DNA of 36,657 nucleotides from a virus: IMG/VR virus record IMGVR_UViG_3300021170_000044, positions 1 through 36,657 of that record. One strand, written 5' to 3'. Each line of letters opens with the position of its first letter. The stretch's first letter is position 1. Both the position numbers and the translations under genes were made by a program. Below are positions 8,435-28,117 of this stretch, piece after piece. The notes under the pieces were generated by a model that was not told the origin of the DNA, did not search any database, and saw only the letters and a list, made by a program, of their open reading frames with translations.

Positions 8435-10552
8435 CTATTGAACAGAAAGCCGAGAACTCAAACTACCATTATTCTCTACAGGCTGATCTAACTCTTTGAG
8501 CATCTTAGATATTTCAGCCATTCGATGCAACTGTTCTATATCCAATCCTTGCAGTTCTTTTGTTGCCCGGACAAAGTTAAGCAATGCTTGTTCATGTTCC
8601 CGCTCAGCAGAAGCCTCATCTCTTTGAGCTTGCGCACGACGTTCAACGGCAAGCGCCTTATTTTCCTCAACCCGACTAATACGCTCAAGCCCAAGCCCTT
8701 GATCTGCCACCGAGCGTGCTTTCGTAAGTTCAACCTGTGCTTGACCTTGTTGCATTTGCATTTGCATTTGCATCTGCTGCATTTGCATCTGCATCTGTTC
8801 TCTTTGTTCCATCATTTGTATGAGTTCAGTTTTGTTCTGGATGGACGCTGCTTCAATCAGTGCTTTGTTTGGTATATCAATACCCGCTTGTTTAAGTTCA
8901 AAAAGCTGTGCAAATTGTAGTTGTTTCTGGCTATCAGTACCGTAGCCTTCTTGTACCATACAGTGATACTTACCAAATGCTTTATTGTGGAACTGCGGAG
9001 TTGGCTCCTGTCCTTCAAGTATCATCCTGATTTTCATAGGGCCATAGTTAGCGGTAAACATCTTTACACTGAGTTCACCAATTGCCTTTAAGGAGAAATC
9101 TGCATTATCAAACAATGGCTGAAGTGCAATACTTCCTGCAATCTGACGTATCGCTGTCTTGAACCCTGAGGCATTCTCATCCACCGTGTAACCCATGTTT
9201 TCCTCAGTAATCCCGGAGACCTTGTGCATTTCATTTGAAAACACATCCATCTGGGTAAACATAGAGGTATCAATATGTGGTGGCTGTATCGGCACAATAT
9301 CACTCATCTGCGCTTCATCTTTTAACGGGATGATTCTGCCCTGACCTGTTTGAAAGAGATGCTTGATATCAACGACTGAACCAACCTTAAATATATAGCC
9401 AGAGTTCGCGACAGACTCAAGAAGATCAGAGGAAAGCATAATACGTCGGTTGAGCATTGCTTGTGGACTCCGTAACGATCTACAGATGCCCTGTATCCTA
9501 CTGTAGTAGTACGGCATCATCGGATTGTAGTACCCAATGACCGGTACGAAATTGAAACAATCGATTCCGAAAGGGTTCTGACCGTCATAGAATACTCTAT
9601 CTTGTATGAGGATTGCCAAGCGAACCGTAGGTATAGTTTGAGTTTGTACTTCAAGCTGTGGATAATTAGCCATCATGAAATCAAAGTCATGTGTTTCCAT
9701 CTGTTCTTTAGTAATCTCCCGCCACATGCCCGATTCTTTATCAATGAGTATTTCTCTCGTTCTAAAATCACGATAATAATACTCATCGTAAGCTAAGAGG
9801 TTTTGTCCTGCCACTCCATAAGACTGCGGCATGTACATAAACCGTCCATCGCGACCTGCACCCGTAGGATTACCAGGAAGACCCATAATCTCATCAGCGA
9901 ACTGAGGCATGAGTGCCGCCGCTGCAGAGTGCGTGAGATACGAGCGTATCCAGACAAAATTGCAGTCTGATAGTGATTTATCGCGGAAATATGGATCAAT
10001 GAAGAACTGGTTATAGGTAAGATTTTTATATTTAATATCACCAAATATAGGGTCGTCAGTGAAGTCGAGGTACGCTTGTATTAGGTTCATACCGGTAATG
10101 CAGGCACCTTGATGGAATGCCTCTGAAAAGATATCATCGAACTGATTATTCTTATGTATATGCATTAATACTTTGGTCATCTGATCTGCGGTAAGTTGAT
10201 CACCATTTTCAAGCGGAGCGACAATAAGAGACTTCCGCTGTTGTCGTTGCTTACCAGAAACCATGGCGCACATTGGTCGAACTCTATTACAGTTAACAGG
10301 GTCCCTGCTTCCATTGTAAAACTGTGGCGATGAATTGGTATCGAGATTATTAGCTACTTCTCCTGCCTCAAGGCGGCTGTCTATCGTTGCTTCAATTTGG
10401 TGGGACATCCATAAAGTCTGATTGGCAAGGTAACATGCATCTATTTTCTTTTTAATATCACCATAGTCACCGACAAATGCTCCACGCTCTCCTCGTTTGG
10501 CTTCGCGTGAGACTACTGACTCAGGCAATCTTGATAGGGGCTTCACTAGCAT
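8435..10552 (-). CDS. Portal protein (P22-like)
   Basis: 705 aa from the ATG at 10552, which has AAGGAGA eight bases upstream; a longer frame from a TTG has no site. Length fits the P22 portal (725 aa). NCNRVRPMCAMVSGKQRQQR near residue 90 is the typical podophage portal start of the wing domain. Further matches: KVSGITEENMGYTVDENASG, then FKTAIRQIAGS. The C-terminal 160 residues form a helical barrel with a Met/Gln tract (about residues 593-615). The portal is the dodecameric DNA channel at the packaging vertex. Terminase lies upstream and scaffold/capsid downstream. Confidence 0.9.
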   Translation of the reverse strand: MLVKPLSRLPESVVSREAKRGERGAFVGDYGDIKKKIDACYLANQTLWMSHQIEATIDSRLEAGEVANNLDTNSSPQFYNGSRDPVNCNRVRPMCAMVSGKQRQQRKSLIVAPLENGDQLTADQMTKVLMHIHKNNQFDDIFSEAFHQGACITGMNLIQAYLDFTDDPIFGDIKYKNLTYNQFFIDPYFRDKSLSDCNFVWIRSYLTHSAAAALMPQFADEIMGLPGNPTGAGRDGRFMYMPQSYGVAGQNLLAYDEYYYRDFRTREILIDKESGMWREITKEQMETHDFDFMMANYPQLEVQTQTIPTVRLAILIQDRVFYDGQNPFGIDCFNFVPVIGYYNPMMPYYYSRIQGICRSLRSPQAMLNRRIMLSSDLLESVANSGYIFKVGSVVDIKHLFQTGQGRIIPLKDEAQMSDIVPIQPPHIDTSMFTQMDVFSNEMHKVSGITEENMGYTVDENASGFKTAIRQIAGSIALQPLFDNADFSLKAIGELSVKMFTANYGPMKIRMILEGQEPTPQFHNKAFGKYHCMVQEGYGTDSQKQLQFAQLFELKQAGIDIPNKALIEAASIQNKTELIQMMEQREQMQMQMQQMQMQMQMQQGQAQVELTKARSVADQGLGLERISRVEENKALAVERRAQAQRDEASAEREHEQALLNFVRATKELQGLDIEQLHRMAEISKMLKELDQPVENNGSLSSRLSVQ
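8751..8797 (-). repeat. ATGCAA/ATGCAG hexamer tract in the portal gene
   Basis: Tandem six-base units (ATGCAA, ATGCAG, CAG) encode the Met-Gln run QMQMQMQQMQMQMQMQQ. Such a tract can change length by slippage without breaking the frame. It lies in the C-terminal barrel helix of the portal. Confidence 0.75.
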
Positions 10553-10651
10553 TACTAAGTTCTCCTTGATACTTGTGGATTCTCTCGAAACTATATGTGA
10601 TGCTAGGGTAGAGGATGCAGACGCGCTGAGCAAATTATAAGGAGATTTATT

Positions 10652-11239: not shown

Positions 11240-13450
11240 TCATAGATACCCAGTCTTTCTATTGCTCGTATTTGGTTGGTTGAAAGGATATGGCAAGTTT
11301 GGCTGCCTGCCCATCAGCGCTTCCATTCTTTTCTTATCAAACTCTTCTGATGTAATGCCCTTTGATGTTAAGTGTATAGCTTGAGCCATATACCTGAGAG
11401 CATCGCAGTTTTTAACAATAGCCCCATTTGAAAGTGAAAAATGACCTACACCTGGAACATTTATACAATAAACATCCTCAAGTTCTCTCAAGCTTTCTAC
11501 GGATTCTACCCGTGGTAGATCAACACACAAGTAGTGCCATGCCAACTGTAAGGCTGCTGCTTCTAATGATTGCCTCGAATTCTTTTTTGCAGTACCCACA
11601 ATTTCTTGTCTCTTTTTTCCAACTATCCCAAGACTTGAGTCGAGTCGCTTGCTCTCTGTGCCACCCTCTTCCTTCTTCTGATCCATGCCATTTAATTGCA
11701 CCTTGTCGACAGGCATCAGAGATTCCGGGGTTTCTGATTTTTGGAATCTTTCTATGGTCTTCCGCAGCCAAACATAACAAGTTCTCCAGGCTATTATTGG
11801 CCACATTCCTATCGATGTGATGGATATGACACCCTGGTGGTATCTCTCCGAAAGCTCTTTCCCATACAGCTCGATGCATGAGGATGCTAAATGAACAGAA
11901 GTAGATTGAGTTTTGATATAATCTGTAGATTTTCCCATCGAAGTATTGGATCCACTTATCAAGGATGATCGGATCATGGAACCCTTCTGTAACTTGTCTG
12001 CGGATATCCACTCGTTGTTCATCATGAATAAATGATCCGGCGTACATTTCACCTTCGTACCGTCTTCGAATTTCACTTCCACAAGATTCGCATTTTTTCT
12101 TGTCATGTACGACTTGCTGCACTTTGACCACCCCTTTAGAGTTAAGACTTCGTCACCATCTTTAACATCTATTATCTGACGCATTCCGTTACGCGTCAAT
12201 ATGGGAGTAGATCCAACAAAACAGTAGTCACTTGCCCAGTTGTGCACTGGTTCACGGCCATACGTTCGCTTTTGCTCATCCCATTCTTTGTAATAGTTTT
12301 CAATGGCATCAACGAGTGATTTACAATTAACCTGGTCTATCCAGAATTTAGGAAAGTGAGTCATAGTGTTTTCAATTGAATCTTGTATGTCAATCTGTTG
12401 AAGTATGGTGAAGGTTATACCAAGTTGTCGTGCCTTCTCGTAACGAGTAACTGCACCACCACCCCATTCGCGCACTGCAAGATCGTGTGGTGCAAAGAAT
12501 TTACCCATACGACCCCAATATGGCTTCTTCTGCAATATCTCCACATAATGATCAAGACCAAGGTTTCTATTTGAATAACAGTCTATAATTCTAATTACTG
12601 CACCATCACCTGCAGTCTGAAACCATATAATAGTCGTTTGATCATTAACTCCAATATCAATAGCACAATGCACCAGAAGTCCTGGTTCATACATGATATG
12701 AGTAATCTGGCCGCGCTTCTTAATATCTTCAAGGCACGTACCAAATACTGCTCCATTTTGTCCACGCTCAAAAGAACACATGTATTCTTGTTCAAATAAC
12801 TCAGGGCTCATCCTTTTTTTCTCTGACTCAAGGTCATCCTCATTTATATGATTAGTTTCCTCGCTGGTCTTTCGATATACAAACCAATCGGGCATCTCTT
12901 TGGCGATAGTGTATTGCTGCCAAAAGTGATTTTTTCCATACGGGGTCGATGCCATAATCACGACGCCCCCATTACCCGCCAAAATAGGACTAACTGTATT
13001 ATAAACATCCCCATCCATATATGCATATTCAGATAGGATTACCATATAGGGGTTCGTACCCCGAATTGAGACGTTATGCGTATCGCCTGCCACGCATTGC
13101 AATACAGAGTTGTTCTTGAACACAACCTTCATCTCTGAAGTGTTGATACTCTTTATAAGTTTGGGGGGTATATAGTCTATAAACCTTTCCCCCGTAGAAC
13201 TGATTGCGGAGAATATTGCTCTGTTTGCTTGGCCGTAGGTAGGTAAAACATAGTGCACCAGGCATATCCTGCGCAGGCATTGTCTAATGGCGAGATTCCA
13301 TAAAGTGATGTCCTTACCGGCGCGTCTGGGGAGGACCACTATTACTTTTCTATAGCCTTTATTCTCAATTGCATCCCATATGGGTTCTTGGTAGGGTCTT
13401 AATAAAAACTTGTCTAATGTGATTATACTTTCTACATCTAGATTATTCAC
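11240..13450 (-). CDS. Terminase large subunit interrupted by an intein
   Basis: 736-aa precursor; about 464 aa after splicing, a normal size for a large terminase. ATPase: Walker A VVLPRRAGKD (residues 38-47), Walker B MVILSEYAYMD (136-146), coupling motif MASTPYGKNHF (166-176). Nuclease: CAIDIGVND (Asp265) and IIDCYS (Asp290). The third nuclease motif is HNWASDY | CDALRYMA, split between residues 409 and 682 by a 272-residue intein. Start is GTG at 13450 with GAAGAAGG upstream, overlapping the DUF551 gene by 8 bases. It drives DNA packaging and cuts the concatemer. The intein breaks the nuclease site, so splicing should be needed for cutting. Confidence 0.92.
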   Translation of the reverse strand: MNNLDVESIITLDKFLLRPYQEPIWDAIENKGYRKVIVVLPRRAGKDITLWNLAIRQCLRRICLVHYVLPTYGQANRAIFSAISSTGERFIDYIPPKLIKSINTSEMKVVFKNNSVLQCVAGDTHNVSIRGTNPYMVILSEYAYMDGDVYNTVSPILAGNGGVVIMASTPYGKNHFWQQYTIAKEMPDWFVYRKTSEETNHINEDDLESEKKRMSPELFEQEYMCSFERGQNGAVFGTCLEDIKKRGQITHIMYEPGLLVHCAIDIGVNDQTTIIWFQTAGDGAVIRIIDCYSNRNLGLDHYVEILQKKPYWGRMGKFFAPHDLAVREWGGGAVTRYEKARQLGITFTILQQIDIQDSIENTMTHFPKFWIDQVNCKSLVDAIENYYKEWDEQKRTYGREPVHNWASDYCFVGSTPILTRNGMRQIIDVKDGDEVLTLKGWSKCSKSYMTRKNANLVEVKFEDGTKVKCTPDHLFMMNNEWISADKLQKGSMIRSSLISGSNTSMGKSTDYIKTQSTSVHLASSCIELYGKELSERYHQGVISITSIGMWPIIAWRTCYVWLRKTIERFQKSETPESLMPVDKVQLNGMDQKKEEGGTESKRLDSSLGIVGKKRQEIVGTAKKNSRQSLEAAALQLAWHYLCVDLPRVESVESLRELEDVYCINVPGVGHFSLSNGAIVKNCDALRYMAQAIHLTSKGITSEEFDKKRMEALMGRQPNLPYPFNQPNTSNRKTGYL
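11408..12223 (-). mobile_element. Intein in the terminase large subunit
   Basis: Residues 410-681 of the precursor. N-terminal block A: CFVGSTPILTRNGMRQI, starting with the nucleophile Cys410. Block B: KVKCTPDHLF, with the T..H pair. C-terminal blocks: VYCINVPGVGHFSLSNG, then AIVKN, ending in Asn681, with Cys682 as the first downstream residue. The penultimate residue is Lys instead of the usual His, seen in some active inteins. The host motif SDY-CDALRY is restored exactly by excision. The centre (about residues 492-640) resembles nothing in this frame because the endonuclease is encoded in the -1 frame. Confidence 0.9.
11520..12047 (-). CDS. HNH homing endonuclease in the -1 frame inside the intein
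   Basis: Stop at 11520; the first ATG of the frame is at 12047, after GAAGGTGAA (frame open upstream to 12131 with GTG). From ATG it is 175 aa. Core: LMHRAVWERAFGEIPPGCHI, then HHIDRNVANNSLENLLCL, with the His-His-Asp and Asn residues of HNH endonucleases. Next come AIKWHGSEEGRGWHREQA and a CGYC zinc half-knuckle, common after the HNH core in phage enzymes. The matching second Cys pair is not present in this frame. It is read -1 relative to terminase. It could start internally, be reached by frameshifting, or be a remnant. Confidence 0.75.
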   Translation of the reverse strand: MYAGSFIHDEQRVDIRRQVTEGFHDPIILDKWIQYFDGKIYRLYQNSIYFCSFSILMHRAVWERAFGEIPPGCHIHHIDRNVANNSLENLLCLAAEDHRKIPKIRNPGISDACRQGAIKWHGSEEGRGWHREQATRLKSWDSWKKETRNCGYCKKEFEAIIRSSSLTVGMALLVC

Positions 13451-25304: not shown

Positions 25305-26006
25305 CTATATTGTTAAGATCTTATACACAAGTGAAATGTTTATCGTATTATCGCCCGCTGCATTACCCGATATATTTGTTGATGAGTTATTGACCGCATA
25401 AACTGCAAAATTCTCATATGTATTAGATGCACCACTTATATTAACACTTGTCAACATGCCTGTTTGACTTGAGGAGGCTACAATATGTGCATTATTTAGA
25501 AATCCGCTATAGATAACTGCGCCACCTACCCCATAGGTAAGATTGATAATTTGACCGGAACTGGCGACGAATACATTGCTCCCCCCATAATTCATCTTAA
25601 CCACTGAGCTTATTAATGAGATCATATTTCCGGGACCCGGAGCCGCTATAACCGCTATAGGAGTTCCAACAAGTGCTTTAATTTGAGCTGAAGTAAGAAC
25701 TAAATTTACATATTGTAAACCTATATTTGCTGCATCAACATATGCTTTATTTGCAGCATCTGTGGTAGCAACGGGTGCATTAGATACAGTCATTGAAGTG
25801 ACGGTAGGAGTTGCAGACCATGACGGATCGGCAGCGGTATTACCGATTAGTACAGTTCCTGTTGCTCCGACTGCGGTTGTATTGATTGGACTGGTTCCAG
25901 CGCCAAGAAGAACCGCATGATTAAGAAGTGTGACATCACCGGTGCCTCCACTTGGAACAGGTACTGGGATAGTGGTAAGTTGTGAAAATTGGGTTATTTG
26001 TGACAT
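25305..26006 (-). CDS. Tail fibre / fibre-tip protein
   Basis: 233 aa. N-terminal module SGGTGDVTLLNHAVLLGAGT then PINTTAVGATGTVLIGNTA is related to repeats in the next upstream fibre (26006-28117). A short repeat (NAPVATTDAANKAYVDAANI) follows; 'ATTDAANKAYVDA' is a common linker motif in phage fibres. The C-terminal 140 residues are a beta domain of unknown type (SSQTGMLTSVNISGASNTYE). GGGAG upstream; the start overlaps the stop of the upstream fibre gene (TAATG). Confidence 0.7.
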   Translation of the reverse strand: MSQITQFSQLTTIPVPVPSGGTGDVTLLNHAVLLGAGTSPINTTAVGATGTVLIGNTAADPSWSATPTVTSMTVSNAPVATTDAANKAYVDAANIGLQYVNLVLTSAQIKALVGTPIAVIAAPGPGNMISLISSVVKMNYGGSNVFVASSGQIINLTYGVGGAVIYSGFLNNAHIVASSSQTGMLTSVNISGASNTYENFAVYAVNNSSTNISGNAAGDNTINISLVYKILTI

Positions 26007-28117
26007 TAATTAACTCCCGTCTTTAATTTAAGATCATTGAGCTCTGATCGTAGTTTTTTAATCTCATTGAGGAGTAGTATTGGTAGCTCATGATATTTAA
26101 CCGTTAACAATTCACCTTTACGGTCATTTACCGTAAAGCTTGGCATAATTTCATGTACTTCTTCAGCTATTAACCCATATTGATTTGATTTTTTAGCGTC
26201 AGCCTTATAGTTGAAGATCACTGGACGAAGAGACATGATGAAATCAGAGCTTGCGCCCATGTCCTGCACATTGTCTTTGAACTTAATAGAGGAAGTTATG
26301 GTACCAAATTGATCAGTAGATGCAGAAACTAAGACAGGTATCGCATCAGCAACACCAGTAGTTATACCCGCAACCCCCGCAATAAAGGTCTGATTTAATT
26401 GACCAGTTCCTGTGCCAGTTCCATTACCTATATAACAGACGTTGTTAGTGCTATTCTGTCCCGCAACTCCCGAACCAATGAGAATATTTGAGCTTTCAGT
26501 GCCATTAAATGAATTCCCTGCATTTGTCCCAATGAGTGTGTTATCTGTTCCATAATTAAGCCCAGCAGCACCACCGCCACCATTTGCTCCAATTATTACA
26601 TTATCATTAGCACCAACCGCAGCTCCAGCATTTACTCCAATAGCTACGTTATTTGATGAAGCGCCAACAGAAAGGGCATTGTAACCAATTGCTACGTTTC
26701 CCGCAGGAGATCCCCCTCCAATCATAGTATTGGAACCAATTGAAACGTTCTGCGTCGCGCTCAATGATTGATTGAGTGCGGCACTTCCAATTGCGATATT
26801 GTCAGTAACGGCTGTGGTTGCATTTTCCATAGCTTGGTATCCAATGGACACATTATTTGTACCGCTACTTAATTGCTCGAGACTCTCACTGCCAAAGGCG
26901 CAATTGTACATGCCTGAGGTCAGTGAGGCCATAGCATTATAGCCCACGGCAGAATTATCTCTACTTGAACTATTAGAACTAGGCATAACATCATAACCAA
27001 GACCCGTATTTTGGTTGCCCGGTGAAGGAAATGAGCCGGTGGATTCGCCGATTATAGTGTTGTAACTATTATCACTGGTTCGCAATTGTATATATGTCGG
27101 ATTGCTTCCATCGATAAGAAACTGCATGGTAGCGCCCGCACCAATAGTTGGCCCTTGTGCCAAAATAGAAACAGTTGTTCCAGTGACCGCAGTTCCCGTG
27201 TCAGCACCTACACTTGTTATTCCGCCGCCTCCACCGCCAGAGGCCTGCCACGTGGGCAACGAGGTAGAGCCAGTACTGGTTAAAACGTATCCAGAATTAC
27301 TTATACCTGTTGATGCACTTTGCAGAACTCCCGTTGTCGTGGTTCCTCCGCAAATTGGTGCATATGCAGTAAATGAAGCATCACCCGTGCCACCATTGGC
27401 AACGACAAGTGTGCCTCCGAGTGTTTCGGTAGCAGTTGCTCCTGCAAACGTAAGTCCCGTTGTTCCACCAGTAAATGTGAAACTATTTCCCGTTAAACCA
27501 CCACCACTGTCACCAGTTATCGTTATAGAACTTGCAGCGGGTGATTGCCATGTAGGAGCTGAGCCCGTAACACCAGTTAATATCTGACCTGTAGTTCCCG
27601 CAGCAGTTGCTGTAATAGCACTTGTTGTGTTTCCAAGAAGAACGCCATGTGATGTAAATGTTGCCGCCCCTGTGCCTCCATGGCCAACAGTAAGGGTACC
27701 CGTAAGGTCAACAGTTGCAGCAGATGCGGTTGTTGTAAGTCCTGTAGTACCACCGGATATGGTTACCGTCGTTCCCGTTGCTGAGCCAGCATCACCATCA
27801 AGTGTTACAATTCCGCCGCCGGATGCTGCCTGAAATGACGGCGCCATTCCTGCACCATTGCTGGTTAGTACGTATGTTGATGTACCTACAGCCGTGGTAA
27901 CTAATCTTGTACCATCATAATACACCACACCATCGGTAGTGGTCATAGAGGTAGCGTTAGTGCCGCCATCTGCAATAGATACGGGGATTGTTAAGGCAAT
28001 TGACCCGGTTGTTGTTATAGGGCTTGGCGTAAGAGTTATACCAGTTCCCGCAGTGAGCGAAGTAACTGTTCCCGAACCAGGGCCGCCTGCTATGATAAAA
28101 TTACCTGCCTGAGACAT
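26006..28117 (-). CDS. Tail fibre with S74 intramolecular chaperone
   Basis: 703 aa. Four or more copies of an N-terminal module (GGTGAATFTSHGVLLGNTTS style). YadA-head-like repeats at about 340-560 (NNVSIGYQAMENATTAVTDN; AGNVAIGYNALSVGASSNNV). The C-terminal ~95 residues form the endosialidase chaperone (peptidase S74): SSIKFKDNVQDM, RPVIFNYKADAKKSNQYGLI, AEEVHEIMP, and a terminal coil (LLLNEIKKLRSELNDLKLKT). S74 domains trimerise the fibre and then cut themselves off near the Ser before the K.K.N motif. AAAGGG upstream. Main host-binding fibre candidate. Confidence 0.85.
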   Translation of the reverse strand: MSQAGNFIIAGGPGSGTVTSLTAGTGITLTPSPITTTGSIALTIPVSIADGGTNATSMTTTDGVVYYDGTRLVTTAVGTSTYVLTSNGAGMAPSFQAASGGGIVTLDGDAGSATGTTVTISGGTTGLTTTASAATVDLTGTLTVGHGGTGAATFTSHGVLLGNTTSAITATAAGTTGQILTGVTGSAPTWQSPAASSITITGDSGGGLTGNSFTFTGGTTGLTFAGATATETLGGTLVVANGGTGDASFTAYAPICGGTTTTGVLQSASTGISNSGYVLTSTGSTSLPTWQASGGGGGGITSVGADTGTAVTGTTVSILAQGPTIGAGATMQFLIDGSNPTYIQLRTSDNSYNTIIGESTGSFPSPGNQNTGLGYDVMPSSNSSSRDNSAVGYNAMASLTSGMYNCAFGSESLEQLSSGTNNVSIGYQAMENATTAVTDNIAIGSAALNQSLSATQNVSIGSNTMIGGGSPAGNVAIGYNALSVGASSNNVAIGVNAGAAVGANDNVIIGANGGGGAAGLNYGTDNTLIGTNAGNSFNGTESSNILIGSGVAGQNSTNNVCYIGNGTGTGTGQLNQTFIAGVAGITTGVADAIPVLVSASTDQFGTITSSIKFKDNVQDMGASSDFIMSLRPVIFNYKADAKKSNQYGLIAEEVHEIMPSFTVNDRKGELLTVKYHELPILLLNEIKKLRSELNDLKLKTGVN

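Follow-up and report, generated by a model that had tools for sequence, protein, structure and literature searches.

A phage terminase intein whose DNA also carries an HNH endonuclease gene in the -1 frame

This locus raises the question of why an HNH endonuclease gene lies in the -1 frame of a terminase intein whose own reading frame stays open throughout. The window, that is, the whole stretch of DNA that was analysed, is the IMG/VR virus record IMGVR_UViG_3300021170_000044 (36,657 nt, 36.7 kb). A sequence-only reading of this DNA had noticed the arrangement and had offered two explanations for it: a pair of compensating frameshifts, near 11970 and 11550, that uncoupled the enzyme while splicing was kept, or a true dual-coded design. 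Profile searches confirmed the arrangement itself, because both proteins were recognised in their respective frames (Table 1) and there was no stop in the intein frame. We consider it very probable that the locus is a terminase intein whose DNA also codes, in the -1 frame, for its homing endonuclease, and that this includes separate expression of the HNH, protein splicing, and homing.

Table 1. Coordinates of the features of the locus in the window.
Feature	Position	Strand	Remarks
Terminase large subunit ORF, 736 aa, intein host	11240..13450	-	Terminase_6N 3.2e-5 and Intein_splicing 5.8e-13 (Pfam)
N-extein of terminase ORF	13450-12224	-	
C-extein of terminase ORF	11407-11240	-	
Intein, 272 aa, 816-bp element	11408..12223	-	Cys1, block B CTPDH, C-terminal Asn, Cys+1
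Sigma-70-like element TTGACG-N17-GATAAT in intein block-A codons	12171..12199	-	Unique in the record; partly palindromic
HNH endonuclease ORF, 203 aa, GTG start, -1 frame of intein	11520..12131	-	HNH_3 1.8e-13 (Pfam)
Likely HNH start, GTG 12131 or GTG 12122, 3' of AAAGGGG	12120..12131	-	ATG at both in L001
HNH zinc-knuckle CESC, -1 reading of intein codons N-A-N-L-V	12081..12092	-	Asn AAT and Leu CTT frozen among relatives
Intein block B VKCTPDHLF; HNH-frame reading GEMYAGSFI	12026..12052	-	Wobble bases near-invariant among relatives
Catalytic HIHHID of HNH	11828-11811	-	
47-bp inversion relative to L001	11513..11559	-	Premature HNH TGA at 11522-11520; intein frame still open

The intein and its insertion site

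The residues C1, T61, H64, and N272 of class 1 inteins were invariant among the 30 inteins compared, and the +1 residue of the window is Cys. The penultimate His of block G, which is usual but not universal in class 1, is Lys in the window, whereas most relatives have His. As judged from these residues, the window carries a class-1-type intein, and its splicing is predicted.

An intein-less terminase allele (L142), 83% identical to the terminase of the window, has the same site empty. The empty site reads PVHNWASNY/ADALRYLAQ and the filled site reads PVHNWASDY/intein/CDALRYMAQ, where slashes mark the junctions. The empty-site sequence indicates that the insertion is exact and lies inside the motif of the terminase that we take to be its nuclease motif.

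We compared predicted structures of the two proteins. In the model of the intein frame, the splicing halves mostly had pLDDT values of 91-97, whereas the linker (residues 91-233) was mostly below 50. The closest solved fold found by Foldseek for this model was the gp41-1 intein (6.5e-7), that is, a Hint fold. The model of the HNH-frame protein had a mean pLDDT of 85, and no match for the HNH was found in the PDB by fold or by profile. Since the linker is mostly unfolded and the halves are confident in the model, the linker looks like an HNH gene read out of frame, with no domain of its own.

Among the other ORFs of the window (968-36597), 8 of the 10 large ORFs scanned had no PHROG match. Only two were recognised, namely the portal (8435-10633) and a virion structural protein (26006-28117).

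Selection in two reading frames

The search of viral contigs with the HNH query gave 9 loci, and that with the alignment query gave 449. We used the best 80 of these 449 loci together with phage isolates, so the family was sampled but not exhausted, and the relatives are mostly metagenomic contigs. The HNH was nested in an open host frame in at least 84 loci, and all of these had one register (intein frame = HNH frame +1). This set was reduced to 67 non-redundant relatives, which come from independent samples and include sequenced phage isolates. An intein-splicing domain was found in all 10 nested hosts scanned, and terminase models matched in 8 of them. The catalytic residues of the HNH (H104/H105, N117, and H126) were invariant. 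No phage match was obtained when 5 kb of the window served as a megablast query, and the sole match in the genome contigs searched was one archaeal MAG contig (L012).

The whole HNH ORF of the window is free of stops in the intein frame. When this ORF was recoded synonymously, a mean of 8.4 intein-frame stops appeared, and none of 1000 recodings was stop-free. Across the HNH genes of the 67 nested loci, the intein frame contained 0 stops against 235 expected from synonymous recoding with each gene's own codon usage and 143 expected from codon permutation within the gene, although this zero is partly given by definition because "nested" required a frame open for 200 aa or more. The result is nevertheless informative, because nearly all relatives found with the HNH query were nested and the free-standing ones showed no stop avoidance. 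That is, the non-nested HNH relatives had 77 stops (55 expected by recoding and 72 by permutation). The third frame of the 67 nested loci contained 1086 stops, compared with 1023 and 1066 expected, respectively.

Substitution rates, pooled over 11 pairs and given here for intein codon positions 1/2/3, indicate which frame is constrained in each region. Block A gave.144/.100/.328 and blocks F/G gave.123/.139/.352, as expected for the intein frame. The linker core gave.154/.401/.199, and intein position 2 is the wobble position of the HNH there. The fast codon position thus switches by region, which means that the frame under constraint is that of the HNH in the linker and that of the intein in the splicing blocks. 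The N-terminal overlap was slow at all positions (.091/.151/.216). Among 37 inteins, codon choice in NAxLVEV and block B was fixed at precisely the positions on which the HNH frame depends: Leu was CTT in 34 of 35 cases (22% elsewhere), Asn was AAT in 30 of 30, and ACG (37/37), CCG (37/37), and GAT (28/28) did not vary. Because these frozen codons encode the C-x-x-C and EMYAGS of the HNH, its N-terminus is overprinted on the splicing domain. On the evidence of codon usage and rates, the N-terminal overlap is constrained in both frames.

We weighed these results against the explanation that the two frames arose in a single-frame HNH intein by a recent pair of compensating frameshifts or by sequencing or assembly errors. 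The local irregularity near 11550 speaks for it. However, the 272-residue intein of the nearest relative (L001), which comes from another metagenome, aligns with that of the window over its full length and with no internal indel, so the shift proposed near 11970 is absent. Between the two, the HNH frame is 78% identical and the linker of the intein frame has drifted; in the linker core, the identity is 82% in the HNH frame and 48% in the intein frame. The uncoupling of the enzyme by two frameshifts is contradicted by the same register in the 67 relatives and isolates and by the fixed distance of the HNH motif from the block-A element described below. The single-frame version that should exist among homologous inteins was looked for, and no in-frame HNH was found among the best 80 of the 449 loci and the phage isolates. 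Sequencing errors as the source of the two frames were rejected, since the register is shared by independent samples and phage isolates. We regard this explanation as having almost no chance of being correct. The other proposal, a true dual-coded design, is supported by the stop avoidance, the switch of the fast codon position, and the frozen wobble bases. Judged by sequence comparison, the dual-frame arrangement is genuine rather than a product of sequencing error, since dozens of distantly related phages have retained it.

The irregularity near 11550 is real, but it is not a frameshift. It is an inversion of 47 bp (11559-11513): with the segment reversed, the identity to L001 over 115 nt rose from 62 to 89, whereas shuffled patches gave 69 at most. 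Another idea, that 11550 holds a frame-shifted copy of the HNH C-terminus, was superseded by this inversion. The C-terminal zinc knuckle, a feature of this HNH subfamily, is intact in L001 and partly removed in the window. Because of the premature TGA and the partial loss of the knuckle, the HNH of the window is probably already impaired, while the splicing frame survives. Homing enzymes decay after fixation, and an impaired HNH in the window fits such decay.

The block-A element and expression of the HNH

In 41 members of the window clade, block A carries TTGAC(A/G)-N17-(G/T/C)ATAAT or a near variant of it 5' of the HNH. The spacing of the -35 and -10 hexamers is exactly 17 bp in nearly all 41, and the start codon follows at a near-fixed distance; for most clade members, the distance between this codon and the first base of the element is 62 or 68 nt. 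When the whole viral collection was searched with the strict pattern, 41 stretches were found, all of them in block A of terminase inteins. In the stretches that matched the standard HNH motif, this motif lay 371-374 nt 3' of the element in the -1 frame. The remaining stretches had a variant motif in the same frame, had lost the HNH (L118), or reached the end of the contig. The fixed element was absent from the nested relatives outside the window clade; Acinetobacter phage Highwayman and Tetrasphaera phage TJE1 are two phages without it.

The conservation of wobble bases in block A was far above the synonymous null at codons 9, 11, 13, 15, and 17 (z 16-36), and the flanks were mostly low. A search for the best promoter match in each region was weak, with scores modestly above the synonymous null (17 of 67 at p<=0.05); the position-locked wobble test was the useful one. 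Synonymous selection for a Shine-Dalgarno sequence gave no clear signal (strength 9.8 against 8.6 in the null). The sigma-70-like element frozen in the block-A codons lies ahead of the HNH start, and the HNH of the window clade is therefore probably transcribed on its own and translated from its own start codon.

Two other routes to the HNH protein were considered. One is programmed -1 ribosomal frameshifting on the terminase-intein message, which would give a fusion of the N-terminal part of the intein with the HNH and would require no promoter of its own. The window and L001 indeed carry a slippery heptamer, A-AAA-AAT in the intein frame, just 5' of the HNH zinc knuckle. However, the heptamer is missing in many relatives, for example L003 and L026, and what is conserved instead are the wobble bases that give the start codon and the promoter-like element, so that we think frameshifting very improbable. 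The other route supposes that the block-A element is an operator, a DNA-binding site, or an RNA element and that the HNH is made by internal initiation on the terminase message; we judge it unlikely, but it deserves more weight than frameshifting. Spacer bases outside the promoter consensus are frozen as well (codons 11-13 and 15, z 10-36), pairing about one axis makes the site palindromic (57% of cells, compared with 14-39% for other axes), and an SD-like GGAGAGG precedes many of the HNH starts. In contrast, the nearly uniform 17-bp spacing of the hexamers and the near-fixed distance to the start are as for a promoter, and the covariation in the palindrome is weak, with a single significant pair (p=0.006). 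The frozen spacer and the palindrome make an operator or another DNA-level role possible, and the frozen spacer shows that the element does something beyond, or other than, the work of a promoter.

We return to the reading that the HNH has a transcript of its own, in which the locus would work as follows. Translation of the terminase frame would give one precursor, in which the splicing halves are joined by a linker read from the HNH gene. The halves would fold and splice out, and the terminase would be restored. The HNH would be a separate product, most likely transcribed from a sigma-70-type promoter within the codons of block A and translated from an internal start codon about 33-39 nt 3' of the -10 hexamer. 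It would then cut intein-less terminase alleles at the conserved site HNWASNY/ADALRY in the nuclease motif, and repair would copy in the whole 816-bp element. Splicing and mobility would thus belong to separate proteins from two frames of one DNA stretch, across distant phages. Because the host frame would be spliced out, its linker would need only to avoid stops, which would explain how an out-of-frame "hidden" endonuclease can persist.

More tentatively, the intein may contain a self-contained gene, with promoter, palindromic operator, start, and knuckle all overprinted on the splicing-domain codons, whose HNH may bind its own operator and so limit its expression, and dual-frame inteins may be an intermediate toward split inteins. 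We hold this extension to be rather doubtful. If it is true, loss of the open frame would leave a split intein and a free endonuclease, as in Vibrio phage 1.238.

Related systems and history of the arrangement

Canonical homing-endonuclease inteins resemble the present one in the Hint fold, in the position of the endonuclease between the splicing halves, and in the conserved enzyme site. However, their endonuclease shares its frame and polypeptide with the splicing domain, that is, one frame and one protein serve both activities, whereas the window has the HNH in the -1 frame and would make two proteins from two frames. Fractured genes and split inteins whose halves are separated by a free endonuclease were reportedly described by Dassa et al. 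in 2009. They are similar in that splicing and endonuclease are separate at one locus, and gp41-1 was the best structural match, but their frame is broken into halves on separate ORFs, whereas the window has a single, unbroken intein frame. The broken version in the same register was found in Vibrio phage 1.238.A (L145:2101-3500), in which the order is TerL-IntN, HNH, and IntC, stops abound in the intein frame, and the C-terminal Hint part has an ORF to itself. The arrangement resembles a split intein whose halves flank the HNH, and a dual-frame intein is a possible route to such split inteins. The free-standing HNHs beside phage terminases (PAE1, SN1, CL2, and BP10) belong to the same HNH family and neighbourhood, but they lie outside inteins, have no need of an open frame, and mostly contain stops in both other frames.

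A preprint by Gosselin, Arsenault, and Gogarten, said to be entitled "Actinobacteriophage Inteins ... Non-Canonical Architecture", may by its title cover out-of-frame intein endonucleases and may have priority. In the literature searched, the closest system is the "hidden HNH" of the ShiLan domain, or Pacc40 insert, an out-of-frame HNH in actinophage DNA methylases (PMC11855218, 2025). Both systems have a zinc-finger HNH with a GTG start in another frame of an insert that is open in the host frame, and homing is presumed in both. However, the ShiLan insert has no splicing domain and is thought to be retained in the protein, whereas the window has a recognisable intein with conserved splicing residues. 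The authors of that study raised the question of how hidden HNHs are translated and proposed leaderless initiation, whereas the window has a promoter-like element frozen inside intein codons; an internal promoter would be a testable answer to their question (PMC11855218). For the terminase inteins of mycobacteriophages, splicing and endonuclease activity are reported in a survey whose available part makes no mention of out-of-frame enzymes (PMC5050341).

Annotation overlooks HNH genes that lie within terminase inteins: in four isolate records (OP947163, HQ225832, NC_019930, and OZ038341), only the terminase was annotated at the HNH match.

When 81 HNH proteins were placed in a tree, those of the clade whose N-terminus is overprinted formed one group (100/99). 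Elsewhere in the tree, nested and free-standing HNHs were mixed, and the well-supported branches force at least 4-5 changes. A mini-intein (L118, IMGVR_UViG_3300009701_000010) has lost the HNH core and kept the splicing frame; it retains the block-A element together with the beginning of the HNH N-terminus.

Two terminase loci showed unusual arrangements. A terminase-like intein host (L089:1404-3695) has a related HNH in the other register (intein = HNH frame +2), and its intein frame contains 0 stops against 11.4 expected; this may reflect either an independent origin or a change of register. In L083:1100-3763, one terminase ORF contains two Hint domains, one near the N-terminus and the other at the usual C-terminal site.

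Free-standing HNH relatives adjoin terminase genes in several phages. The Acinetobacter phages Highwayman and BP10 (L016 and L018) have sister HNHs, one nested in a TerL intein and the other free-standing, and in this pair the free-standing HNH sits upstream of the small terminase gene.
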